Assembly (NCBI GenBank): GCA_018222865.1
Contig: JAAEZM010000017.1
Span: forward strand, 1-44,749
Direction: 5' to 3'
DNA from: Alphaproteobacteria bacterium
GTDB taxonomy: Bacteria; Pseudomonadota; Alphaproteobacteria; Caulobacterales; Maricaulaceae
DNA length: 44,749 nucleotides
In this document: one piece after another, positions 6,598 to 28,336 of the stretch
Layout: the number at the start of each line of letters is the position of its first letter
Position numbering within the stretch: position 1 is the first letter of the stretch
Position numbers and translations under genes: made by a program
The notes under the pieces: generated by a model
What the model saw: the letters and a program-made list of their open reading frames with translations, nothing else
Database searches by the model: none
What the model was told of the DNA's origin: nothing

Positions 6598-7506
6598 CTA
6601 GCGCAACCCTTTTCGCGGGTCATAACCACGCGGTGGGGTCCAGGTTTCCAGGAAAGCGCGCAAAGCGTCGTCCCGGTCCGGCACAGCAACCATCAGCCGA
6701 ATGATCTGATCACCGCGCCCGCCCTTCTGTCCAGCAAACCCTTTGCCACGCAGGCGGAGCAATGTGCCACTGCTTGACCCTTCGGGGACGCGGACATCTA
6801 CATCGCCATCAATTGTCGGCACGCGGATCTTGGCGCCGAGGGCAGCTTCGCGAAGTGAAATCGGCAGGTCGAGGCGGACATTCTGGCCATCGCGGGAGAA
6901 ATAACGATGTTCGGCGATCCGCAGCTCGACCAAGGCATCCCCCGGATTACCGCCATTTGGCGAGGCCTGTCCTTGACCACGCAATCGCAGGACCTGGCCG
7001 TCATCAGCGCCCGCTGGCACCGCGACATCCACTGAACGCCCGCCCGGCAGGACGACGCGATGCTTGCCACCTTTGGCCGCCTGCATGAAATCTAGGGTCA
7101 GGGTCTGACGGACATCCCCGCCCTTGCGGCGCGGTGGCGGCGGGCCACCACGGCCGTCATTTGCCGTACCGAAATCGGTAAACAGATCCGAGAAGATATC
7201 GCCCAGATCATCAAAACCGCGCCCGCGACCCTGACGAAAATTGAACGGCCCGCGTTGGCCTGCCGCTCCGCCCTGGCGAAACTGCGGCCCAAAACCCGCC
7301 CGCGCAGCAGCATCATACTCTGCACGCTTCTCAGCATCCGAGAGAATCGCAAAGGCCGCGGAAACAGCCTTGAAGCGCTCTTCCGCCTTGGCATCACCCG
7401 GATTGGCATCGGGATGCAATTCCTTGGCGAGCTTGCGATACGCACTGCGGATCTCATCCTGGCTCGCGGTCTTGGCAACACCTAATGTCTTGTACGGATC
7501 GTCCAT
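6598..7506 (-). CDS. DnaJ-class co-chaperone (CbpA-like, no zinc finger)
   Basis: A 302-residue type II J protein that stimulates the ATPase of DnaK. The J domain (about 3-68) contains the essential His-Pro-Asp at residues 31-33 (KELHPDANPG). A glycine/phenylalanine-rich linker with RGRGFDDLGDIFSDLF follows. The two C-terminal beta domains (about 125-290) have the conserved G-x-GFAGQKGGRGD form, and there is no CxxCxGxG zinc finger. The family is usually about 300 residues, so it is full length. It lies immediately downstream of the GTA cluster on the same strand, but a 72-base gap separates them and co-transcription is not shown. Confidence 0.93.
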   Translation of the reverse strand: MDDPYKTLGVAKTASQDEIRSAYRKLAKELHPDANPGDAKAEERFKAVSAAFAILSDAEKRAEYDAAARAGFGPQFRQGGAAGQRGPFNFRQGRGRGFDDLGDIFSDLFTDFGTANDGRGGPPPPRRKGGDVRQTLTLDFMQAAKGGKHRVVLPGGRSVDVAVPAGADDGQVLRLRGQGQASPNGGNPGDALVELRIAEHRYFSRDGQNVRLDLPISLREAALGAKIRVPTIDGDVDVRVPEGSSSGTLLRLRGKGFAGQKGGRGDQIIRLMVAVPDRDDALRAFLETWTPPRGYDPRKGLR

Positions 7507-7578
7507 ACAATTGGGCCCTCAAGCTGAACTACTAGCCTTGCATGTAAGAGGCTTCGGCTTCATTCGCAAAGCATGGCT

Positions 7579-10500
7579 TCACACGCAGGCCTCCAGCTGC
7601 GCCCACACACCGGCACCAAAACGCTCAGACAGCTGGCACACACGCAGTCTTACACGCCCCCCCGGCCGGACAGTGACACCTGTCATTATCGCAGCGGGCT
7701 GGTCGACCTGCCCGGCCCAGATCCGTTCTGCATCAAGATAAAGCTCAACCCGGTAGCGTTCGCTCGCCTCCGCCATCGGCACATCCTCGCCCCACCAGCC
7801 ATCACCACTCACGCGCGTCCGGCGGATCCAGCTGGCCTCAAGGCCGTGCGCCAAACGATGCAGGCGAAGGTGGACGGGCGCGTAGGGGCGCAAGGCGCGT
7901 TGTCGTGGCGTAAACTGGCGATAGGCCCGACGTTCACGTCCAGCCTCTATGTTCAATGGCTGTCCGATCACATCATCATTCAGCGGCAGATCGACCAGAG
8001 ATGCATCGATCAATACCGCTTGTGTCCCCGCGGGAAGATCCAGCCCTTCTGGTGAACCTTTCAACCCGATCAATAGGCGTGAGAGGCGGTAGCGGCGCTC
8101 GCCAACAAGCTCGGCCTCGGCAAACTGGATGACCGCCCACTCCCCTCCGCCCAGATCCAATGCCAGTCGGTTCGCGCCTGCGAAAATCTCCAGGTCTTCG
8201 TGGCTTTGAAGATGCCCGCTTACCAGTTCGATCTCGAAAGCAGCGTCCAGCCACCGTCCCGCACCCGCCGCCCGCAAGGGTGAGGACAGATAGCCAAGCG
8301 TTGCGGGACGAACCGCCTGGCTGGCGACCGCAAAACCGCCCGTGGCGTTCTTGGCCAGAACCGGCATGGCGCCGATCCAGGGCACCGCGCTGACCGCCAG
8401 GCACAGCGCACCTTCCTGCAATTCAAGAAGAGCAAGTTCCGGCCGCGGCGCCGTCGGCTGCGCCCGCCCGGGCTCGGGCTCTCCGCCCGAGCGCAGTCTT
8501 TCTCCCGGCAAGGGCCGCACCAGATCGATGCGGCGCAGATCAATCCCATCGCTGGTGCGGATCAGATAGTTTTCATTGCCGTAACGGACCTGATCTCCGG
8601 CCTCCAGGGCAAGCTCGGAGGGCGGAAGGTTGAGGCTGAGGGAATACCCGTCACGCAAAAGGCGCGCACCAAACTGCTCGGCAGAACGCTCCGCACGCAC
8701 AGGGTCACTGACCAGGGCAAGGCCGAAGGTGCGCATGCCTGCCCCTGTGGCGGAGCTTTGAGCCAGCCCAGGGGCATAATCAGCCGTCTCATCTATGTAA
8801 TTCAAACGGATTTGCGCCTGCTCCAGGACCGGGTCGGAAAACTCCTTGACCTGAGCGGCGCCGCCTTCGGGTTGGACAGGATTGTCGAGCGTGCGCGATG
8901 GCCCAGGACTATCGGCTGAGAAGAAGCGCAGGCCGGTAACGGTTTCAGTCGCCTCAACGCCGAATAACCGCAATAACGGCCCCAACACATCACGTCCGCG
9001 CTGCGGACCGGTCTGCACATAGCCAGTGATGACCTCGTGCACTTTGGACGCTTCGATATCGTCATTGCCGCAATCTGCACTGACCGCCTCAATCAAGCTC
9101 CGCAAGGGAAATTGCCCGGCCCGGCCATTGAGCCAATGCCCATAGGTCCAGTTAAGTCCATCAGCCCAGATATCGGAAAGGGCTGGAAAGTCCGGCCAGG
9201 GGCGGCCATCCCAGCACCAGACATGAATCCAATCCGGCTCGACCATCGGCCCGCCATAAGTCGCGGAAACAGGATTATTTGGACCGGCCGGCTCGAAATG
9301 GCCCAGCAAGGCCTCAAGCATTCGCCGCTGGATCATGTCATCGCGCTGGCCATCTGACGCAAAGGGACGAGCGCTTTCCGCGCTTTTGGGGTCGAAGAAA
9401 AGATTGGGCTGGTTAGATCCTTTATCGATTGCGGGGCAGCCAATCTCTGTCAGCCAGATCGGTTTCATGCCCGGCTGCCAGCCCGTCGACACAGTCGCCC
9501 TCACCCCATCAGGCCGATCGAAATGCGGTTTTGACCACCAGTTGACGAGATCTTTCCGGCGCCAGATCCACGGCTCTCCATGGGCGTTATCCTGGATCGG
9601 TGTGCGGGTCTGCGACGCCCGATCCTCCTCGCTGGCATAATACCAGTCATAGTCCTCTGCCCCGAGAATATTGGCCGCGAGATAGTCCGGATCGTCGATA
9701 TGATCGAACGCGGCGCGATCAAGATGCGCCTCCCCATCGCGCCAATCACTCATCGGCGGATACCAGTCGATTGCCACAGCATCGATATCGGGATGTGACC
9801 AGAGCGGGTCGAGGTGAAAACACTTGCCGCCACGACCGTCCTGATACCCCGAATACTCCGTCCAGTCCGCGGCATAGGATATCCGGCACTCAGGCCCCAA
9901 AAGAGCACGCGCGTCCTCGGCCAGGCTTATCAACGCGTCGACGGCTGGATGGCCGCCGGTCCCTGCAAGCGGTGTCAGCGCGGCGAGCTCTGTACCTATG
10001 AGAAACCCATCTACACCGCCCGCCTCCTGCGCCAGGGCCGCATAGTGCAGGATGTGACGCCTGAGACCCCAGCTATCCGGACCACCGAAAAAGCGTGCAA
10101 CGGCGCTATCGATCGCCGCCGCATCCTCCCCCTCACCGACCGCAATCCGGCCGCGCCAGGGGAAGGCGGGCTGCGCACCGGGACCGGACAGGGCCGGCAG
10201 GTCATTATCCGGCGGAATATCCATCAGAATGAACGGATAGAGGATGACGCGAAACCCGCGGGCCTTGAGATAGCGGATCGCCGCGATCACGCTGTTATCG
10301 CTGGGTGTTCCCCCATATGCCGGACGCCCGTCGATTTGCGAGACGAGATAGGCGTTTTCGCGGGTTTGCCCGGCAACAGACCAGCTGACGGGATCGGTCT
10401 GCTTGTCCCGGCTTTCCACGCCCGGCCGAATACGGCACTCGCCACAGCGCAGATCATCCCCGAACCAGCTGACCACGAGCTGGATGGAACGGCAGGATGG

Positions 10501-20333: not shown

Positions 20334-22079
20334 ATGTTCGACTTTGAATCGGGAATCGACGCGCCAAGTCGTCAGGACACCGCACGCGCCTTGCATCGCT
20401 ATCTCTCAAAAGGGGTTGATCAGGATGATACGCACCTCGCCTGGAAAGCCATCGAGCCGCGCCTTACCGATGTGCTGGATGATTTCTATGACGGGGTCAC
20501 CAGCGTCTCCGCTCTGAACTATGTGATCGGCCGCAATGAAGCGTCTGTCGATGGCCTTAAATCCGTTCAGGACAAGCATTTGCGCACGGTCTTTGCCGGC
20601 AAATTCGGCGAGGACCAGATCGCAGCCTGTGAACGCATTGGTGCTGCCCATGTGAAGGCTGGGCTCGACTCCAGCTGGTTCCTGGCGGGCTATGCACACG
20701 TTCTCAGCGCCATGATCCCCCACATTGTTAAAGCCTATCGGCATGCCCCGGGCAAGCAGACCCGCGCCTTGCAGGCCATGGTCCAGACTGTCTTCCTCGA
20801 CATGGTTCTGGCCAATCGCGCTTATGAGGACGGCATGCAGGATGCGCTGGTGCAGAAAAAGCAGCAGGAAGCCGATCTTGCCAGCCTGACCGAGGTGGCC
20901 AATACGGTCGTGGGCCTTAACAAGGTGATGCTCAATCTCGCCTCCTTGAATGAGACGACCGACAACACCGCCAGTGCCAGCCAGTCCATCTCCGCCGCCA
21001 CGGAACAGATGATCGCTTCAACCGATGAGATCGCTGCGAATAGTGAAAGCGCCGCGGAGGAAGCCAGCAAATCCAACGCTATTGTTGGCAATTGCACGGA
21101 CAGTCTGGTCAATGCAGCCGACGCCATGGCCAATATCGCCGAAAGCTCGCGGGTCTCCGCCACCCGGTTGGATGAACTCACCCAGGCGGCTGGCCAGATC
21201 TCGGACTTCCTCTGCGTTATTCAAAGCATAGCTGACCAAACCAATCTGCTGGCCCTTAATGCCACAATCGAAGCCGCCCGCGCCGGTGAAGCCGGTAAGG
21301 GGTTCGCCGTCGTGGCGTCGGAAGTGAAATCCCTGGCAACCCAGGCCGCTTCAGCGACAGAGGACATCTCGACCAAGATCTCCGCTTTGCAGGGCGGTAT
21401 CGACGCCATCCAGTCGACCTTCTCGTCTTCCGCTGACGCGATCGAACATGGCCAGGGCCTCTTGCAGACCTCGACCCAGGGCATGGCCGAGGCGCAAGCA
21501 CAGGTCAACGCCGTCTCCGCGCGGATGACCGAGATCGCCAGCATTCTTCAGCAACAAAAGAGTGCGAGTGACGAGATCGGTCGCCGTGTCACCGATGTGT
21601 CCGGCATGTCGATGAAAAACCGTGATCGCCTCAACGAAATCACCCTGACTTTCAATGAGAGCAATACCCGCTTCTCTGACAGTGCCAAATCCTGGTTCCG
21701 AGAGGATTCTGACCGCTCCTTGTGCCAGATGGCCAAGATCGACCATGTCATGTTTAAAAAGCGCGTGGTCGATACCATTCTTGGCGATGGCCAATGGGAC
21801 TCAAAGGAAGTGCCGGATCATCATGGCTGCCGTTTAGGCAAATGGTTTGACGGCATGGCCGACCGGCTCGGTGACCTCCCGGCCTATCGGGCCCTGAGCG
21901 AACCTCATAGCCGGGTCCACACTGCAGCGCGTCAGGCGCTGGAGGCTCATGAATCCGGCGACAGCGCGCGCGCAACGCGTGAACTTGATGAGCTGGAAAC
22001 CGCCAGTGGCGAAGTCATCGTCCTGCTTGATCAACTCATGGACGCGCTGGACAAGATGGCGAAAGAGAACGCGGCCTAG
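20334..22079 (+). CDS. soluble globin-coupled chemoreceptor with C-terminal CZB zinc domain
   Basis: A 581-residue cytoplasmic methyl-accepting chemotaxis protein with no membrane segment. Residues about 10-165 are a globin-coupled sensor (protoglobin-like) domain; the proximal haem ligand is probably His106 ([12 protein letters not shown]). Residues about 190-450 are the signalling helices, with the hairpin tip [20 protein letters not shown] at about 300-320 that contacts CheA/CheW. Residues about 465-575 are a chemoreceptor zinc-binding (CZB) domain with the full ligand set His471, Cys499 (GCRLGKWF), His525 and His529. The protein should sense a haem ligand such as oxygen and, separately, zinc or hypochlorous acid. 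It stands alone; no che genes are nearby. Confidence 0.92.
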
Positions 22080-22638: not shown

Positions 22639-24615
22639 ATGATCATGGAGCCGTATCGCGCGGATCACATGATGGATAAGCAGCGGCGTGTACGCCGCAA
22701 CCGCCTCATTGTCGGCGGGCTGGCCCTGTTTGTTCTCATCACCACGCTGATCAGCGCGTTCAGCATCTGGAACTGGGCTTATCATGATCTGCCCGAGGCG
22801 CCCGATAATGCTGCCGTTTTGTGGTCGGCGCGGCGGGAACCCTCTGTCACCCTGCTGGACCGGGATGGCGAGGTTCTGGCTGTCCGCGGACCGCTCTATG
22901 CGCGCGCGGTCGGCCTCAATGAACTTCCCGACCATGTCCCCCAGGCCTTCCTGGCCATCGAGGACCGGCGCTTTTACGAGCATGATGGCGTGGATCTGCG
23001 CGGCGTCTTGCGGGCGCTCTGGGTCAATCTTCGGGCCGGGCGGTCGGTCCAGGGCGGCTCGACCATCACCATGCAATTGGTGAAAAACCTGATCCTGTCT
23101 CCCGACCGGCTCTTGCGCCGCAAGCTGCAGGAAATGCGACTGGCCCGTCAGCTCGAAGAGCATTTGACCAAGACGGAGATCCTCGAGCTCTATCTCAACC
23201 GGGTCTATCTGGGCGCAAGGGCGTTCGGCGTAGAAGCGGCCGCTCAGCGCTATTTCAACAAATCGGCAACCGACCTCACCCTCGCGGAAGCCGCACTCCT
23301 GGCTGCGCTGCCCAAAGCGCCCAGCCGGCTGGATCCGACCGTCAATCTGGATGCCGCCCAGGCCCGCGCCGCCATGGTGCTGGACGCCATGCTCGATGCG
23401 GAGTTCATCGACCAGGCCGCCTATGATGCGGCGATCGCCAATCCCGCCGTCCCAACACCGCCGGAACTGGATCCCCAGGCAGGGGTCACCTGGGGCTATG
23501 TATTTGATCACGCCGTCTCACAAGCGCAGAACCTGCTCGTCGGCGAAGACATCCCTGATCTGGTCATTCAAACGACCATTGACCCGGAACTGACCGAGCT
23601 CGCGCGTGAAACCGCACTCGCCGCACTGGATGAACGTGGCGAGGAGCAAGGCGCCAGCGAGGCGGCTATCGTGCTTCTGGCGCCTGATGGGGCGATCCGC
23701 GCCTATCACGGCGGACGCGATTATCTCGACACCCAGTTCAACCGCGCACTTCAGGCCCAACGCCAGCCCGGCTCGGCCTTCAAACCCATTGTGTTCACCG
23801 CTGCACTGGAGGCTGGTTATGACCCCTCCTCCGCCGTCTGGGATGAGCCTGTGGACCTGGAAGGCTGGACGCCGGAGAACTTCTCCGGGAATTATCGCGG
23901 CCTGGTGACCCTGCAAGAAGCGCTGAAGCGCTCGATCAACACAGTGGCCGCGCAGATCGGTGATCAGATAGGCGTTGAGCGGATTGTGGAAATGGGCCAG
24001 CGCCTGGGAATACAATCGCCTCTGCCCGCCCTGCCGTCTATCGCTCTGGGGGCGGCGGAGACCAATCTGCTGGAACTGACCTCGGCCTATTCTGTCTTCC
24101 CGCGCGATGGCGCGCGGGCAGACCCGTATCTGGTAACCCGGCTGACCAATTCACGCGGCGATGTGCTGTTCGAGCATACAGCGGACACCCTGCCGCGGGC
24201 GATCTCGACCGAGCATGCCCAGGCCATGTCGACCATGTTGCAGGATGTGGTGCTGACCGGAACAGGCCGCCGCGCCTCCCTGCCTGACGGCCGTGCTGTG
24301 GGCGGAAAGACAGGCACCAGCCAGTCCTTCCGGGACGCCTGGTTCATCGGCTTTACCGCTGATTATACAGCGGGCGTCTGGGTGGGGAATGATGATGACA
24401 GCCCGATGGAAAATGTCACAGGGGGTGGTCTGCCGGCTGAGATCTGGCGCGATTATATGAGCCAGGTCCACGCGGACCTGCCGGCTCGCGCCCTCTCCGC
24501 TCCGGCACCGCGTACCCGCTCGGAACGCGAGGAAAGGCTCGCGGCCTATTATTCGGAACTGTCGGCGGCTTTCGACGCCATATTGTCCGACGAAGACCCG
24601 GATGATGAGCGTTGA
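22639..24615 (+). CDS. class A penicillin-binding protein (bifunctional, PBP1 type)
   Basis: A 658-residue inner-membrane enzyme that polymerises and cross-links peptidoglycan. One membrane helix lies at about residues 23-45. The glycosyltransferase 51 domain has EDRRFYEHDG with catalytic Glu108, GGSTITMQLVKN, RRKLQEMRLARQLE and ILELYLNRVYLG. The transpeptidase has the three active-site boxes SAFK (Ser379), SIN (Ser432) and KTGT (Lys557). It is shorter than E. coli PBP1a or 1b and lacks obvious accessory domains. Starts at 22639, 22645 or 22669 are all possible; the first is given. Its last 67 bases overlap the channel gene on the other strand. Confidence 0.93.
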   Translation: MIMEPYRADHMMDKQRRVRRNRLIVGGLALFVLITTLISAFSIWNWAYHDLPEAPDNAAVLWSARREPSVTLLDRDGEVLAVRGPLYARAVGLNELPDHVPQAFLAIEDRRFYEHDGVDLRGVLRALWVNLRAGRSVQGGSTITMQLVKNLILSPDRLLRRKLQEMRLARQLEEHLTKTEILELYLNRVYLGARAFGVEAAAQRYFNKSATDLTLAEAALLAALPKAPSRLDPTVNLDAAQARAAMVLDAMLDAEFIDQAAYDAAIANPAVPTPPELDPQAGVTWGYVFDHAVSQAQNLLVGEDIPDLVIQTTIDPELTELARETALAALDERGEEQGASEAAIVLLAPDGAIRAYHGGRDYLDTQFNRALQAQRQPGSAFKPIVFTAALEAGYDPSSAVWDEPVDLEGWTPENFSGNYRGLVTLQEALKRSINTVAAQIGDQIGVERIVEMGQRLGIQSPLPALPSIALGAAETNLLELTSAYSVFPRDGARADPYLVTRLTNSRGDVLFEHTADTLPRAISTEHAQAMSTMLQDVVLTGTGRRASLPDGRAVGGKTGTSQSFRDAWFIGFTADYTAGVWVGNDDDSPMENVTGGGLPAEIWRDYMSQVHADLPARALSAPAPRTRSEREERLAAYYSELSAAFDAILSDEDPDDER

Positions 24616-25418
24616 AGTTCGGAATGCAGCGCTGAGACTTCAGCGCGCAAGGCCCGGATCTCATGCATCAGCTCCGCCCTTTCCTCCTGCGCTTCTTCAT
24701 CACGCGCATCTTCATCATCAAAATGCTTGGCCTGAAGGCTGTCGACAATGATGGCGATGAAGAGATTGAGCACGGCGAAACTGGTCAGAACGATAAAGAC
24801 CAGGAAAAAGATCCAGGCCCAGCCATGATTCTCGCGAACCGGGTTTTGAACCTCGGTCGCCCAGCCCTCCAGCGTCATCACCTGAAAGAGCGAGAGCGCG
24901 CTCTCACCCAGATTGCCGAACAGCTCCGGGTTGGTGCCGCCGAACAGTTTCACCGCCATGACGGAGGAGACGTAGAACATCAAGGCCAGCACCGCGATGA
25001 TCGCCCCCATGCCGGGGATGGCGCGCAGCAGGGCTTCGATCACTTTGCGCATTTCCGGCATGACCGAGAACAGCCGGAAGACACGCAGAATCCGCAGCGA
25101 GCGCAGGACCGCGAACCCGCCGGCATCGGGCATAATCGAAACACCGACCACGATGAGGTCAAACCAGTTCCAGCCGCTTTTGAAAAACCGCATCCGGTAC
25201 GCGATGAATTTGAGAATAAGCTCGAAGACGAAGACCGATACGACCACGCGGTCAACAATAGGCAGGATCGACAAGAACCATGCCTGGCGAACCGGGAAGG
25301 TCTCCAGCCCCAGCGTGATCGCATTGATAACGATCAGTCCCAGGATGAAATTCCTGAACAGCGCGCTTTCCACGAAAGCGATCAAGCGGTCAGTGGCGGT
25401 CATGGTGGCAGTACTCAT
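24549..25418 (-). CDS. NaChBac-type voltage-gated cation channel with TLEGW filter
   Basis: A 289-residue single-repeat, six-helix channel that should act as a tetramer. S1 is about 24-43, S2 57-74, S3 84-98; S4 carries Arg106, 109, 112 and 115 at every third position (LRSLRILRVFRLF); S5 is about 136-158 and S6 201-227. The pore loop reads QVMTLEGWATEV, with filter T182-L-E-G-W186. Sodium-selective relatives usually have TLESW; Gly at the fourth position recalls the native calcium channel CavMr and eukaryotic Cav repeats I and III. The C-terminus has the usual acidic neck (DDEDARDEEAQEE) and a heptad coiled coil (L250, I254, L257, V261, L264, L268). Na versus Ca selectivity is open. Confidence 0.92.
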   Translation of the reverse strand: MSTATMTATDRLIAFVESALFRNFILGLIVINAITLGLETFPVRQAWFLSILPIVDRVVVSVFVFELILKFIAYRMRFFKSGWNWFDLIVVGVSIMPDAGGFAVLRSLRILRVFRLFSVMPEMRKVIEALLRAIPGMGAIIAVLALMFYVSSVMAVKLFGGTNPELFGNLGESALSLFQVMTLEGWATEVQNPVRENHGWAWIFFLVFIVLTSFAVLNLFIAIIVDSLQAKHFDDEDARDEEAQEERAELMHEIRALRAEVSALHSELQRSSSGSSSDNMASKAADSSE

Positions 25419-26061: not shown

Positions 26062-27144
26062 ATGCCGGTCGTCAGCAAGCTGAACAATCTGGTCGAGCTC
26101 GCCAAGGAGAAGTCCTCGGATCGCCGACGAGCCTTGCTGCGAGAGGTGACCGATCTTTTCTTTGACGAAACGCCGGAAAGCGGCGGCGACGTCTCCAACA
26201 AGTTCGAGGAAGTTCTCACCGCCCTGGCCGAGCAAACCGCCCAGGAAGCGCGCGAGGAACTCTCCGAGCGTTTCGCCGAGGCCGATAATGCGCCGCGGGG
26301 ACTGATCCGACGCCTCGCCCATGATGCGATTGAGGTGGCCGCGCCGATCCTGGCCAAATCGAACGTCCTGGACGAGAGCGAATTGCTCTCCATCGCCGAG
26401 ACCGGCCAGCAACCGCATCTGCAAGCCATCTCGAAGCGTGAACAGGTTTCAGAACGCCTGTCCGATACAATTGTCCGGCGCGGTGATGACAATACCGTCG
26501 CCACGCTGATCCAGAATGAAGGCGCCCAGCTCTCGCGTCAGACTTTCGAGACCGTGACCGAGCGCGCTGAAACCTCCAAAACCCTTCAAGGCCCGCTGGT
26601 TGAGCGCACCGACACGCCCAATGACCTTCTCGCCGATCTCATGCTGACCGTGGAAAATCGCTTGCGTGATCGTATCGTCGAGCGCTTCAACCATGTCGAT
26701 CCGGATGTGATCCAGCATGCGATGAATGCTTCACGCGAACGTCTGGCCAAGCGTCTGGAAGACGACAAGGAATTGGCGGAAGCGCGTAAATTCATCCAGT
26801 CCAAGCAAGTTCGTAAACAGCTCGATGGCGCCCTGCTCGCGCGCCTCTTGCGCGAACGCCAAAACACGAGACTCTATGTCGGTTTTGCTGAAATGACCGG
26901 TGTCGACCTGGTCGCCGCTCGCCGCGCCATCGAACAGGAATGCGTCGATCCGCTGGCCCTGATTTGCAAGGCGGCCGGTCTCGACAAGGCGCTCTTTGTC
27001 ACCCTGGCCGTCCTGCGCAAATCCGCGAATGCAGAAGCGCTTGCCGACGCCAAGGAACTGGGCCTGCTATATGACAGGATCAGCCTGGAAGACGCCGAAC
27101 GCGCCATGCGCTTCTGGCGCCTGCGCAGAGATGTAGCGGCTTAG
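26062..27144 (+). CDS. DUF2336 domain protein
   Basis: A 360-residue soluble, helical-repeat-like protein of the DUF2336 family, found mainly in Alphaproteobacteria. Recognisable parts are KLNNLVELAKEKSSDRRRAL at the start and VVRRGDDNTV-like (DTIVRRGDDNTVATLI) in the middle; the late LARLLRERQNTRLYVGFAE and CKAAGLDKALFVTLAVLR are also typical. The function is not established; its repeat form suggests a protein-interaction or regulatory role. A strong AGAGGG stands 5 bases before the ATG. It is convergent with the MscS gene, with a 7-base gap. Confidence 0.88.
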   Translation: MPVVSKLNNLVELAKEKSSDRRRALLREVTDLFFDETPESGGDVSNKFEEVLTALAEQTAQEAREELSERFAEADNAPRGLIRRLAHDAIEVAAPILAKSNVLDESELLSIAETGQQPHLQAISKREQVSERLSDTIVRRGDDNTVATLIQNEGAQLSRQTFETVTERAETSKTLQGPLVERTDTPNDLLADLMLTVENRLRDRIVERFNHVDPDVIQHAMNASRERLAKRLEDDKELAEARKFIQSKQVRKQLDGALLARLLRERQNTRLYVGFAEMTGVDLVAARRAIEQECVDPLALICKAAGLDKALFVTLAVLRKSANAEALADAKELGLLYDRISLEDAERAMRFWRLRRDVAA

Positions 27145-27151
27145 CGTTGCC

Positions 27152-28336
27152 TTAATCAGCGGTTTTGGAGGTCGCGCCGGTCCTTGCGGCGGGCGGGGTG
27201 AAGTATTCCGCGCCCTGTTCCAGATAGATGCTGGTCGATGGGAAGGCGAAATCCGTGCCGGCCGCTTCCACGATCGTCTTGATCTCGAAAGCCAGCTCTT
27301 CTTTCAAGCGCAACCACTCCCCCCAATTCGTTGTCTTGGTGAAGCAATAGAGCATGAAGTCGATGGAGGACGGGCCGAACTTGTCGACGCGCATGAAGGT
27401 CGAGACTTCCGGCGGATGGGCATACTCAGGATGGTTGAGCACATAGCTGAGCACTTTATCGCGGATCTCTTCAAGCTGGGCGACGCTGGTGTCATAGCGC
27501 ACACCGATGATCCAGTAGGTTCGGCGATGCGTCATCCGCGAAAAATTGGTGACGGCATTATCGGCCAGCTTGGAATTGGGCACATAGACCGGCCCTTTGT
27601 CGAAACGGCGGACCAGGGTGGAACGGAAATTCACCTCCTCCACCGTGCCCTCAACCACGCCATCCACCTTGATCCAGTCGCCTGGCAGGAAGCGCTTTTC
27701 TGTCAGGATCAAAAAACCGGCAATGAGGTTTTTGAACAAGTCCTGGGCGCCCAGGCCCACTGCAACCCCGAATAGACCCAGACCCGCGACGATCGGGCCG
27801 ACAGAAATGCCCCAGAGCTCGAGAATGGCGGCGGCACCGACAATGATGAATACGACTTTCAGCGCCTTGGTGAGCCAGTCCAGCATCAGCGGCGTCAGCG
27901 CTTTTTGCAGACCTCGAAGCAAGGCCATGACAGGTTCGACCGAATTGTGCAGCGCCCAGAAGATCACAATGGTGATCAGGGTTCGAATGAGATTATCGCC
28001 ATCCCCGAGGAAGAAACTGCCCTCGCTGGCGCCGCTGCGAAGCACTTCCATGGCAAAGAAGAGCGCGATGATCACCGGGACAAGTTTGACCGGCCCGGCG
28101 AGCGCATCGACGATGGCATCATCGATCTCGGTCTCACTCTTCTTCGCCAGGCGGCGCAGGGAGGCGACAATCCAGGCGGCGATCGCAGAGCGCAAGGTCA
28201 GGCCAAGCAGCACGATCAGTATGGCAGAAACGCCCTGACCGATACTCACTCCGAGAAAGGACGTGTTCCAGACCTCGGTTGTGATAGTCCAGAGCTGCTC
28301 GAAATCACCCATCAAGCCATTATTGCCAGCACTCAT
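27152..28336 (-). CDS. MscS-family mechanosensitive ion channel
   Basis: A 394-residue small-conductance mechanosensitive channel. It has an N-terminal helix pair, a middle hydrophobic block, and the pore helix/beta-domain region: GLFGVAVGLGAQDLFKNLIA, followed by GFLILTEKRFLPGDWIKVDG, VEGTVEEVNFRSTLVRRFD and VPNSKLADNAVTNFSRM. The C-terminal domain ends in DFAFPSTSIYLEQG. It releases solutes on hypo-osmotic shock. The longer N-terminus gives more membrane helices than E. coli MscS. Its ATG overlaps the prfC stop by four bases, so the two are coupled. Confidence 0.93.
   Translation of the reverse strand: MSAGNNGLMGDFEQLWTITTEVWNTSFLGVSIGQGVSAILIVLLGLTLRSAIAAWIVASLRRLAKKSETEIDDAIVDALAGPVKLVPVIIALFFAMEVLRSGASEGSFFLGDGDNLIRTLITIVIFWALHNSVEPVMALLRGLQKALTPLMLDWLTKALKVVFIIVGAAAILELWGISVGPIVAGLGLFGVAVGLGAQDLFKNLIAGFLILTEKRFLPGDWIKVDGVVEGTVEEVNFRSTLVRRFDKGPVYVPNSKLADNAVTNFSRMTHRRTYWIIGVRYDTSVAQLEEIRDKVLSYVLNHPEYAHPPEVSTFMRVDKFGPSSIDFMLYCFTKTTNWGEWLRLKEELAFEIKTIVEAAGTDFAFPSTSIYLEQGAEYFTPPAARTGATSKTAD

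Follow-up and report, generated by a model that had tools for sequence, protein, structure and literature searches.

A conserved NavAb/NavMs-type voltage-gated channel of Maricaulis with a natural TLEGW filter and plausible calcium permeability

Introduction

Does a glycine in the selectivity filter turn a bacterial voltage-gated channel toward calcium? The question is raised by a channel gene in the 44,749-nucleotide stretch of alphaproteobacterial DNA analysed here (the window), whose filter carries a glycine where sodium channels of this kind carry a serine. The conserved sodium filter of bacterial voltage-gated channels (BacNavs) has been described as TLESWxxG (PMC4225499; published values here and below are those given in the accessible portions of the sources). 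CavMr of Meiothermus ruber, a native Ca2+ channel with the filter TLEGWVD, has a PCa/PNa of 218, which is 11.9 in the G4S mutant, 40 in V6T and 144 in D7M; conversely, D4G raises the PCa/PNa of NavPp from 0.31 to 41 (PMC7041947). Canonical BacNavs are said there to be without Gly4 in combination with a polar or acidic position 7. A "beacon" scheme likewise takes Gly at HFS+1 as calcium-selective in one-domain channels (PMC10120453).

In the NavAb backbone, by contrast, the same exchange has little such effect. NavAb S178G (TLEGWSM, "LivAb") has a PCa/PNa below 0.05 and a PLi/PNa of 2.18, M181A a PCa/PNa of 0.36 and the double mutant S178G-M181A one of 0.47; according to this 2026 paper, no prokaryotic Cav other than CavMr has been identified (PMC12919392). 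When whole filters were exchanged between CavMr and NavAb, no current was seen (PMC7041947).

Results

The channel ORF (Table 1) is intact on the minus strand; plus-strand translation of the same bases gives stops. The protein matches Pfam Ion_trans at 162.3 bits (cut-off 25) and is the sole Ion_trans match at E <= 0.001 in the window's genome. An NCBIfam search with the protein returned no family, and Rfam and tRNA scans of the window gave no match at the thresholds used. An AlphaFold2 model, for which the window protein and 47 locus proteins were the input, has a mean pLDDT of 89.8; its helices are consistent with S1-S6, and it also shows a pore loop and an extended C-terminal helix (residues 201-286). 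When this model was submitted to Foldseek, the best 50 of 652 rows were all NavAb, CavAb (an engineered NavAb) or NavMs entries or their mutants. NavMs (Magnetococcus) and NavAb (Arcobacter butzleri) were also the first bacterial chains among the best 60 of 162 matches in a PDB sequence search, with identities of 45% over 230 aligned residues (NavMs) and 42% over 251 (NavAb). T-type Cav chains topped that list because the scores of their several domains are summed: their best single domain reached 78-88 bits (three alignments) versus 222 for NavMs.

Table 1. Features of the channel locus, in window coordinates
Feature	Position	Strand	Basis or remark
Voltage-gated cation channel gene, 289 aa, NavAb/NavMs-type BacNav	24549..25418	(-)	ORF, Pfam, fold, identity, tree
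S4 voltage-sensor helix, residues 103-119, with Arg106, 109, 112 and 115	25062..25112	(-)	sequence and model
Selectivity filter T182-L-E-G-W-A-T-E189, positions 1-8	24852..24875	(-)	translation
Gly185 codon, position 4, aligned with NavAb Ser178	24864..24866	(-)	alignment
Thr188 codon, position 7, aligned with NavAb Met181	24855..24857	(-)	alignment
Glu189 codon, position 8, where TLESWxxG channels have Gly; in one alignment column with the acidic residue of short-loop filters	24852..24854	(-)	MAFFT
Acidic neck and C-terminal helix, residues 229-286	24561..24734	(-)	sequence and model
Convergent penicillin-binding protein gene (Transgly and Transpeptidase); conserved neighbour	22639..24615	(+)	overlaps the channel gene end by 67 bases
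DUF2336 gene, on the opposite side of the channel	26062..27144	(+)	near the channel in many relatives examined
MscS-type mechanosensitive channel gene	27152..28336	(-)	start overlaps the RF3 gene end by 4 bases
Methyl-accepting chemotaxis protein gene	20334..22079	(+)	protoglobin sensor and CZB zinc-binding domain

The protein has the six-helix, single-domain Ion_trans architecture of NavAb-like BacNavs, and it shares with NavMs and NavAb the fold, the S4 arginines, the pore helix, S6 and the C-terminal helix. Fold, sequence identity and tree all mark it as a NavAb/NavMs-type BacNav. The original prediction of a channel with four S4 arginines and an acidic neck is upheld by the intact ORF, the Ion_trans match, the model and the arginines at 106, 109, 112 and 115; the coiled coil that it also named would lie within residues 229-286, by analogy with solved BacNavs.

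What sets the channel apart from NavMs and NavAb is its filter, TLEGWATE as against TLESWSMG in both. Minus-strand translation confirms this predicted reading, including the extra acidic Glu189. Relative to TLESWxxG, the filter differs at positions 4 and 8, which bars the label of a TLESW-type sodium channel and leaves NavAb-like membership by descent unaffected. Its Gly4 and Thr7 agree with the Gly4 and polar or acidic position 7 of AnclNav/CavMr filters, and its own acid stands at position 8. MAFFT put Glu189 in one column with the acidic residue that short-loop filters such as TLEGWPDI carry, with the placement of the loop gap being uncertain. The EGW glycine is, as had been pointed out, common to CavMr and to repeats I and III of Cav channels, in agreement with PMC7041947. 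One difference had been missed: Thr188 stands in place of a Met of the NavAb M181 type.

Is the glycine peculiar to this genome? The channel proteins of eight Maricaulis records are identical to, contained in or contain those of eight genomes of the window's genus, g1 (ten named records matched); g1 is therefore Maricaulis, an alphaproteobacterial genus with a marine name, as suits the marine alphaproteobacterium first proposed as host. The remaining two of these records, a Hyphobacterium one and another that bears the label Maricaulis sp. IN14, correspond by channel protein to genomes of the sister genus g8. A literature search found no paper with both Maricaulis and voltage-gated. All 19 Maricaulis genomes carry the channel, every one with the filter TLEGWA[T/S][D/E], as do six of the eight g8 genomes, all six with TLEGWAM[D/E]. 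Family-wide, 58 of 137 genomes have a channel match at E <= 0.001, a number that includes weak or partial ones. We read 57 family loci, 54 of them by filter motif: 24 were TLESW, from genera g6, g13, g14, g15 and g19, and 30 were TLEGW, comprising the 25 of Maricaulis and g8 and five more distant channels, four of which have the short-loop filter TLEGWPD. The three loci outside the motif, inspected afterwards, read PESW (g15) and FDGW (g10, g11), so that the long-loop channels of other family genera (n = 27) are 24 TLESW, 1 PESW and 2 FDGW. We conclude that the glycine is no oddity of the window's genome: it is kept across Maricaulis and its sister genus. Filter codons at the 19 Maricaulis loci vary synonymously while the residues hold, and the Met7 site is Thr or Ser in all. 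The median pN/pS over 171 Maricaulis pairs is 0.35, a rough value only, since synonymous sites approach saturation (pS of 0.52-0.67 in the pairs that include the window channel).

The gene neighbourhood is conserved as well. The penicillin-binding protein gene lies downstream of the channel at 19/19 Maricaulis and 6/6 g8 loci, at a distance of about 1.4 kb in the Maricaulis locus L004 and its named copy L055. It is also present at four of the five Ser4 loci with about 1.5 kb of flank (L032-L035) and was not seen in L031; the remaining family Ser4 loci have flanks too short for comparing neighbours. DUF2336 lies on the other flank of the channel at many loci, including the Ser4 loci L031, L032, L033 and L035. 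Since the penicillin-binding protein gene accompanies Gly and Ser channels alike, the filter differs at one orthologous locus, and the window channel is best read as an orthologue with a different filter, not an imported gene. Horizontal replacement of the channel is unlikely, given that one or both of these neighbours lie close to it in Gly4 genera as well as in Ser4 genera.

Other genes in the surroundings also caught our attention. An MscS-type gene like that of the window also accompanies the voltage-gated channel at L064, L119 and L145 and, in g8, at loci L025-L030. The chemotaxis protein is presumably HemAT-like. Calcium exporters were considered as physiological support and set aside: PF01699 sodium/calcium exchangers are present in 129 of the 137 family genomes irrespective of filter type, and hence lend the calcium reading no support.

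How common is Gly4 elsewhere? Scanning a public genome collection with the codon pattern F-Q-[hydrophobic]-[IM]-T-[LF]-E-G-W gave at least 114 TLEGW loci, 113 with a channel match; the 113 listed are from Alphaproteobacteria (67), Betaproteobacteria (17), Gammaproteobacteria (14) and other phyla (15, three archaeal). Among 337 genomes of the window's class, 55 showed the Ser pattern and 10, with that of the window among them, the Gly pattern. When position 4 was left open, 43 of 398 genomes of the phylum gave 44 matches, 42 TLESWSMG and 2 TLEGW, in a draw whose pattern also demanded T as the second base of codon 9 and which had some genomes in common with earlier draws. The two TLEGW filters continue ATE (the window channel) and ADG. 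Hence, TLEGW filters are in the minority without being rare.

We then asked which residues accompany the glycine. From 251 proteins, 238 usable ones (NavMs and NavAb included) were clustered into 148 representatives: 112 long-loop, meaning no gap within filter positions 1-8, and 36 short-loop. Position 4 was fixed in the Gly and Ser pattern scans; positions 7 and 8 were free in sequence selection. L021-L024 and L102 (no match) were left out before counting, as were 13 of the 251 proteins that were shorter than 215 aa or without the motif. Of the long-loop representatives, 53/54 with Gly4 carry an acidic residue at position 7 or 8, compared with 0/58 with Ser4, the Ser4 sample being from the window's class and phylum and containing no Bacillus channels (TLESWASG, PMC4225499). 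The Ser4 rows are near-invariant (Ser6 in 58, Met7 in 57, Gly8 in 55), and Met7 is retained in 57/58 of them versus 6/54 Gly4 rows. Short-loop filters behave alike: 34 of 35 Gly4 rows have the acid, and the single Ser4 row has none. The exceptions among all 148, Gly4 filters free of acid, are L047 (TLEGWSMG) and L076 (TLEGWVN). Left-out rows viewed later (L202, PESWSMG; L205 and L206, FDGWAGE; L223, GDGWSE) fit the rule and are uncounted.

Shared descent could inflate such counts, and the association was therefore read on the tree. The best tree requires at least 18 changes for Gly4 and 18 for the acid, counts that hold for that tree because most inner branches are weak (36/145 starred); starred branches alone force at least six changes of the long-loop Gly4 label. 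In independent contrasts over starred branches (200 pairings), Gly4 and acid agreed in 6.9 of 7 on average and were never opposite, some pairings including one contrast without an acid difference (sign test, all loops: median p 0.016, range 0.016-0.031). Long-loop contrasts alone agreed in 6/6 (median p 0.031, range 0.031-0.0625). Within the Gly4 long-loop rows, the acid occupies both positions in 8, only position 7 in 14, only position 8 in 31 and neither in 1 (Fisher p 1.2e-6); corrected for the tree, this tendency of one acid to replace the other does not reach significance (0 pairs in the same direction, 3.2 in opposite directions, 2.7 without a difference; median p 0.25). What seems to be new is that Gly4 and a neighbouring acid are paired across several independent switches within the NavAb-type group. 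Glu189 is thus the extra acid originally noticed, though not an isolated one: it is half of a recurrent pair.

A careful tree of 58 rows, with the filter columns removed, placed the channel more closely. The 16 Gly4 rows of Maricaulis and g8 form one clade (99/93, starred), the 14 family Ser4 rows another (99/96, starred), and the two are sisters at 94/93, just below the star. The window channel is interleaved with TLESWSMG channels, next to the family Ser4 clade, as NavAb-like channels branch. The large tree has a weakly supported backbone, and NavAb itself has no firm position in it. Short-loop rows, a poor stand-in for AnclNav, are not one clade (7 label changes), and 3 of the 36 (L207-L209, window's family) fall in a 28-row starred set with the window channel. 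Rows with DGW filters lie near the Gly4 and Ser4 clades and make a Gly4 ancestor possible by parsimony; we therefore claim no Ser-to-Gly direction. Reversion from such an ancestor to TLESWSMG could have occurred and would need Ser4, Ser6, Met7 and Gly8 to be restored together.

Discussion

The channel encoded in the window is real and conserved; it belongs to a known family and carries a filter variant that is natural and common. What would such a filter pass? We infer the tetramer, its gating, the side-chain positions and every permeability discussed here. Our tentative choice, to which we give almost an even chance on sequence grounds, is a homotetrameric, depolarisation-activated, mixed Na+/Ca2+-permeable cation channel of the NavAb/NavMs group. 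At the sites of Ser4-Ser6-Met7-Gly8 in its sister channels, it has Gly4-Ala6-Thr7-Glu8. Glu184 would still make the high-field-strength ring; Gly185, which lacks the hydroxyl of Ser, may make the mouth wider; Thr188 would sit where a Met would otherwise help to exclude divalent ions; and Glu189 would add a second acidic ring near the mouth, so that each tetramer would carry -8 from the two glutamates, a charge equal to the one reported for CavMr. Both Na+ and Ca2+ should then permeate, at a guessed PCa/PNa of 0.3 to 30, less Ca2+-selective than CavMr. Two points weigh against this choice. The acid is not essential in CavMr, given the 144 of D7M versus 218; and with filter swaps that pass no current and an S178G that stays Na+-selective, results from one backbone may not transfer to another.

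The nearest measured stand-in is NavAb S178G-M181A, which has Gly4 without Met7 and differs in its Ala7 and in having no added acid (PMC12919392). From its values, together with the Gly4, the missing Met7 and the added Glu8, we infer an appreciable, not high, Ca2+ permeability; by the same analogy, Glu8 should push further toward Ca2+, and calcium permeability of the window channel is plausible. The Met7-retaining g8 channels are predicted to be more Na+/Li+-like. NsvBa of an alkaliphilic Bacillus (TLDSWGSG, non-selective) is another natural BacNav in which an altered filter goes with broader permeability, though its Asp3 and Ser4 are unlike the window's (PMC4225499).

Perhaps the channel is instead still a Na+-selective BacNav, in which glycine and acid alter Li+ preference, divalent block or gating and leave the Na+/Ca2+ choice alone. 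We hold this to be somewhat unlikely, yet a serious competitor. NavAb S178G, from the channel group to which the window protein belongs, has Gly for Ser at the equivalent site and is Na+/Li+-selective, though it retains Met7 and Gly8 (PMC12919392). The glycine, first proposed as a determinant of calcium selectivity, fits that role in the drop of CavMr G4S; for the NavAb backbone the claim is too strong (PMC7041947, PMC12919392). A Gly-bearing Na+-selective channel, named at the outset as a refutation, nearly exists in S178G, which is a mutant and not a native channel (PMC12919392). By this analogy, Gly4 by itself is no predictor of calcium permeability. Filter charge alone is not decisive either: NavPp (TLEDWTD, three acids) is reported as Na+-permeable with Ca2+ block, and NavRh (TLSSWET-) of a marine alphaproteobacterium was Na+-selective once grafted into NaChBac (PMC4225499). 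Against Na+ selectivity, the Ca2+-excluding Met7 of NavAb is Thr or Ser at 19/19 Maricaulis loci, and the recurrent pairing of an added acid with Gly4 suggests a role in permeation.

Could the channel be highly Ca2+-selective like CavMr, with Glu189 acting as Asp7? This seems improbable to us. CavMr, which we compared by its published description only, has the same TLEGW core, an acid soon after the Trp (one residue earlier than the window's) and -8 of filter charge per tetramer (the window's count includes Glu189); MAFFT sets Glu189 in the acid column of short-loop TLEGW filters, and the beacon scheme would call Gly at HFS+1 calcium-selective (PMC10120453). CavMr belongs, however, to the AnclNav group (PMC7041947) and has an L6 disulfide extension (PMC10120453), whereas the window protein has a NavAb-type backbone and no cysteine in 289 aa, and therefore no CavMr-type L6 disulfide. 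Its position 6 is Ala, not the Val whose change to Thr lowers CavMr to 40 (PMC7041947), and NavAb S178G-M181A reached only 0.47 (PMC12919392).

Drift in a weakly used channel, of no consequence for selectivity, would agree with a channel match in only 58/137 family genomes but is hardly credible for a channel kept in 19/19 genomes of its genus, with synonymous-biased change and a Gly-acid pair that recurs on the tree.

Filters with Gly4 and a polar or acidic position 7, which the accessible text of PMC7041947 reports as absent from canonical BacNavs, occur here inside the NavAb-type group, gained or lost several times beside orthologues with the classic sodium filter. The accessible parts of PMC7041947, PMC8002053 and PMC12919392 contain no description of a natural NavAb-type Gly4 channel, and literature searches, with most subscription papers beyond their coverage, found no electrophysiology of one. 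One orthologous channel varies at positions 4, 6, 7 and 8, from TLEGWA[TS][DE] in Maricaulis through TLEGWAM[DE] in the sister genus to TLESWSMG in the family, and the sodium-to-calcium filter question is therefore testable with natural channels besides designed mutants. A broader idea, which we would sooner doubt than adopt, is that NavAb-type channels toggle repeatedly between two distinct filter modules, Ser4-Ser6-Met7-Gly8 and Gly4 joined by an acidic residue at 7 or 8, the latter being a widespread, many-times-evolved class of native calcium-permeable proteobacterial channels that includes Maricaulis. If so, glycine and acid would together form a natural code at two sites for letting calcium through, one that closely resembles the code of Cav repeats I and III and that arose separately from CavMr's.

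Several filters met along the way deserve mention. L047 (Thioalkalivibrio sp. HK1, 6749-7603, minus strand) has a natural TLEGWSMG, whose TLEGWSM is identical to the engineered, Li+-preferring NavAb S178G; it is the only filter free of acid at 7 and 8 among the 54 long-loop Gly4 representatives. L076, L096 and L101, on Nitrososphaerales archaeal contigs, are channel relatives with TLEGWVN or TLEGWIN and no acid. DGW with Glu8, and so Asp at the high-field site, is found in L217, L218 and L220 (family f4) and in L205 and L206 (family f1), as TLDGWSGE, TLDGWSSE and LFDGWAGE. L213-L216 (family f2, same order) read TMDGWRFE or TMDGWRME, with Asp at the high-field site, Gly4, Arg after the Trp and Glu8; an arginine inside a BacNav filter looks odd.
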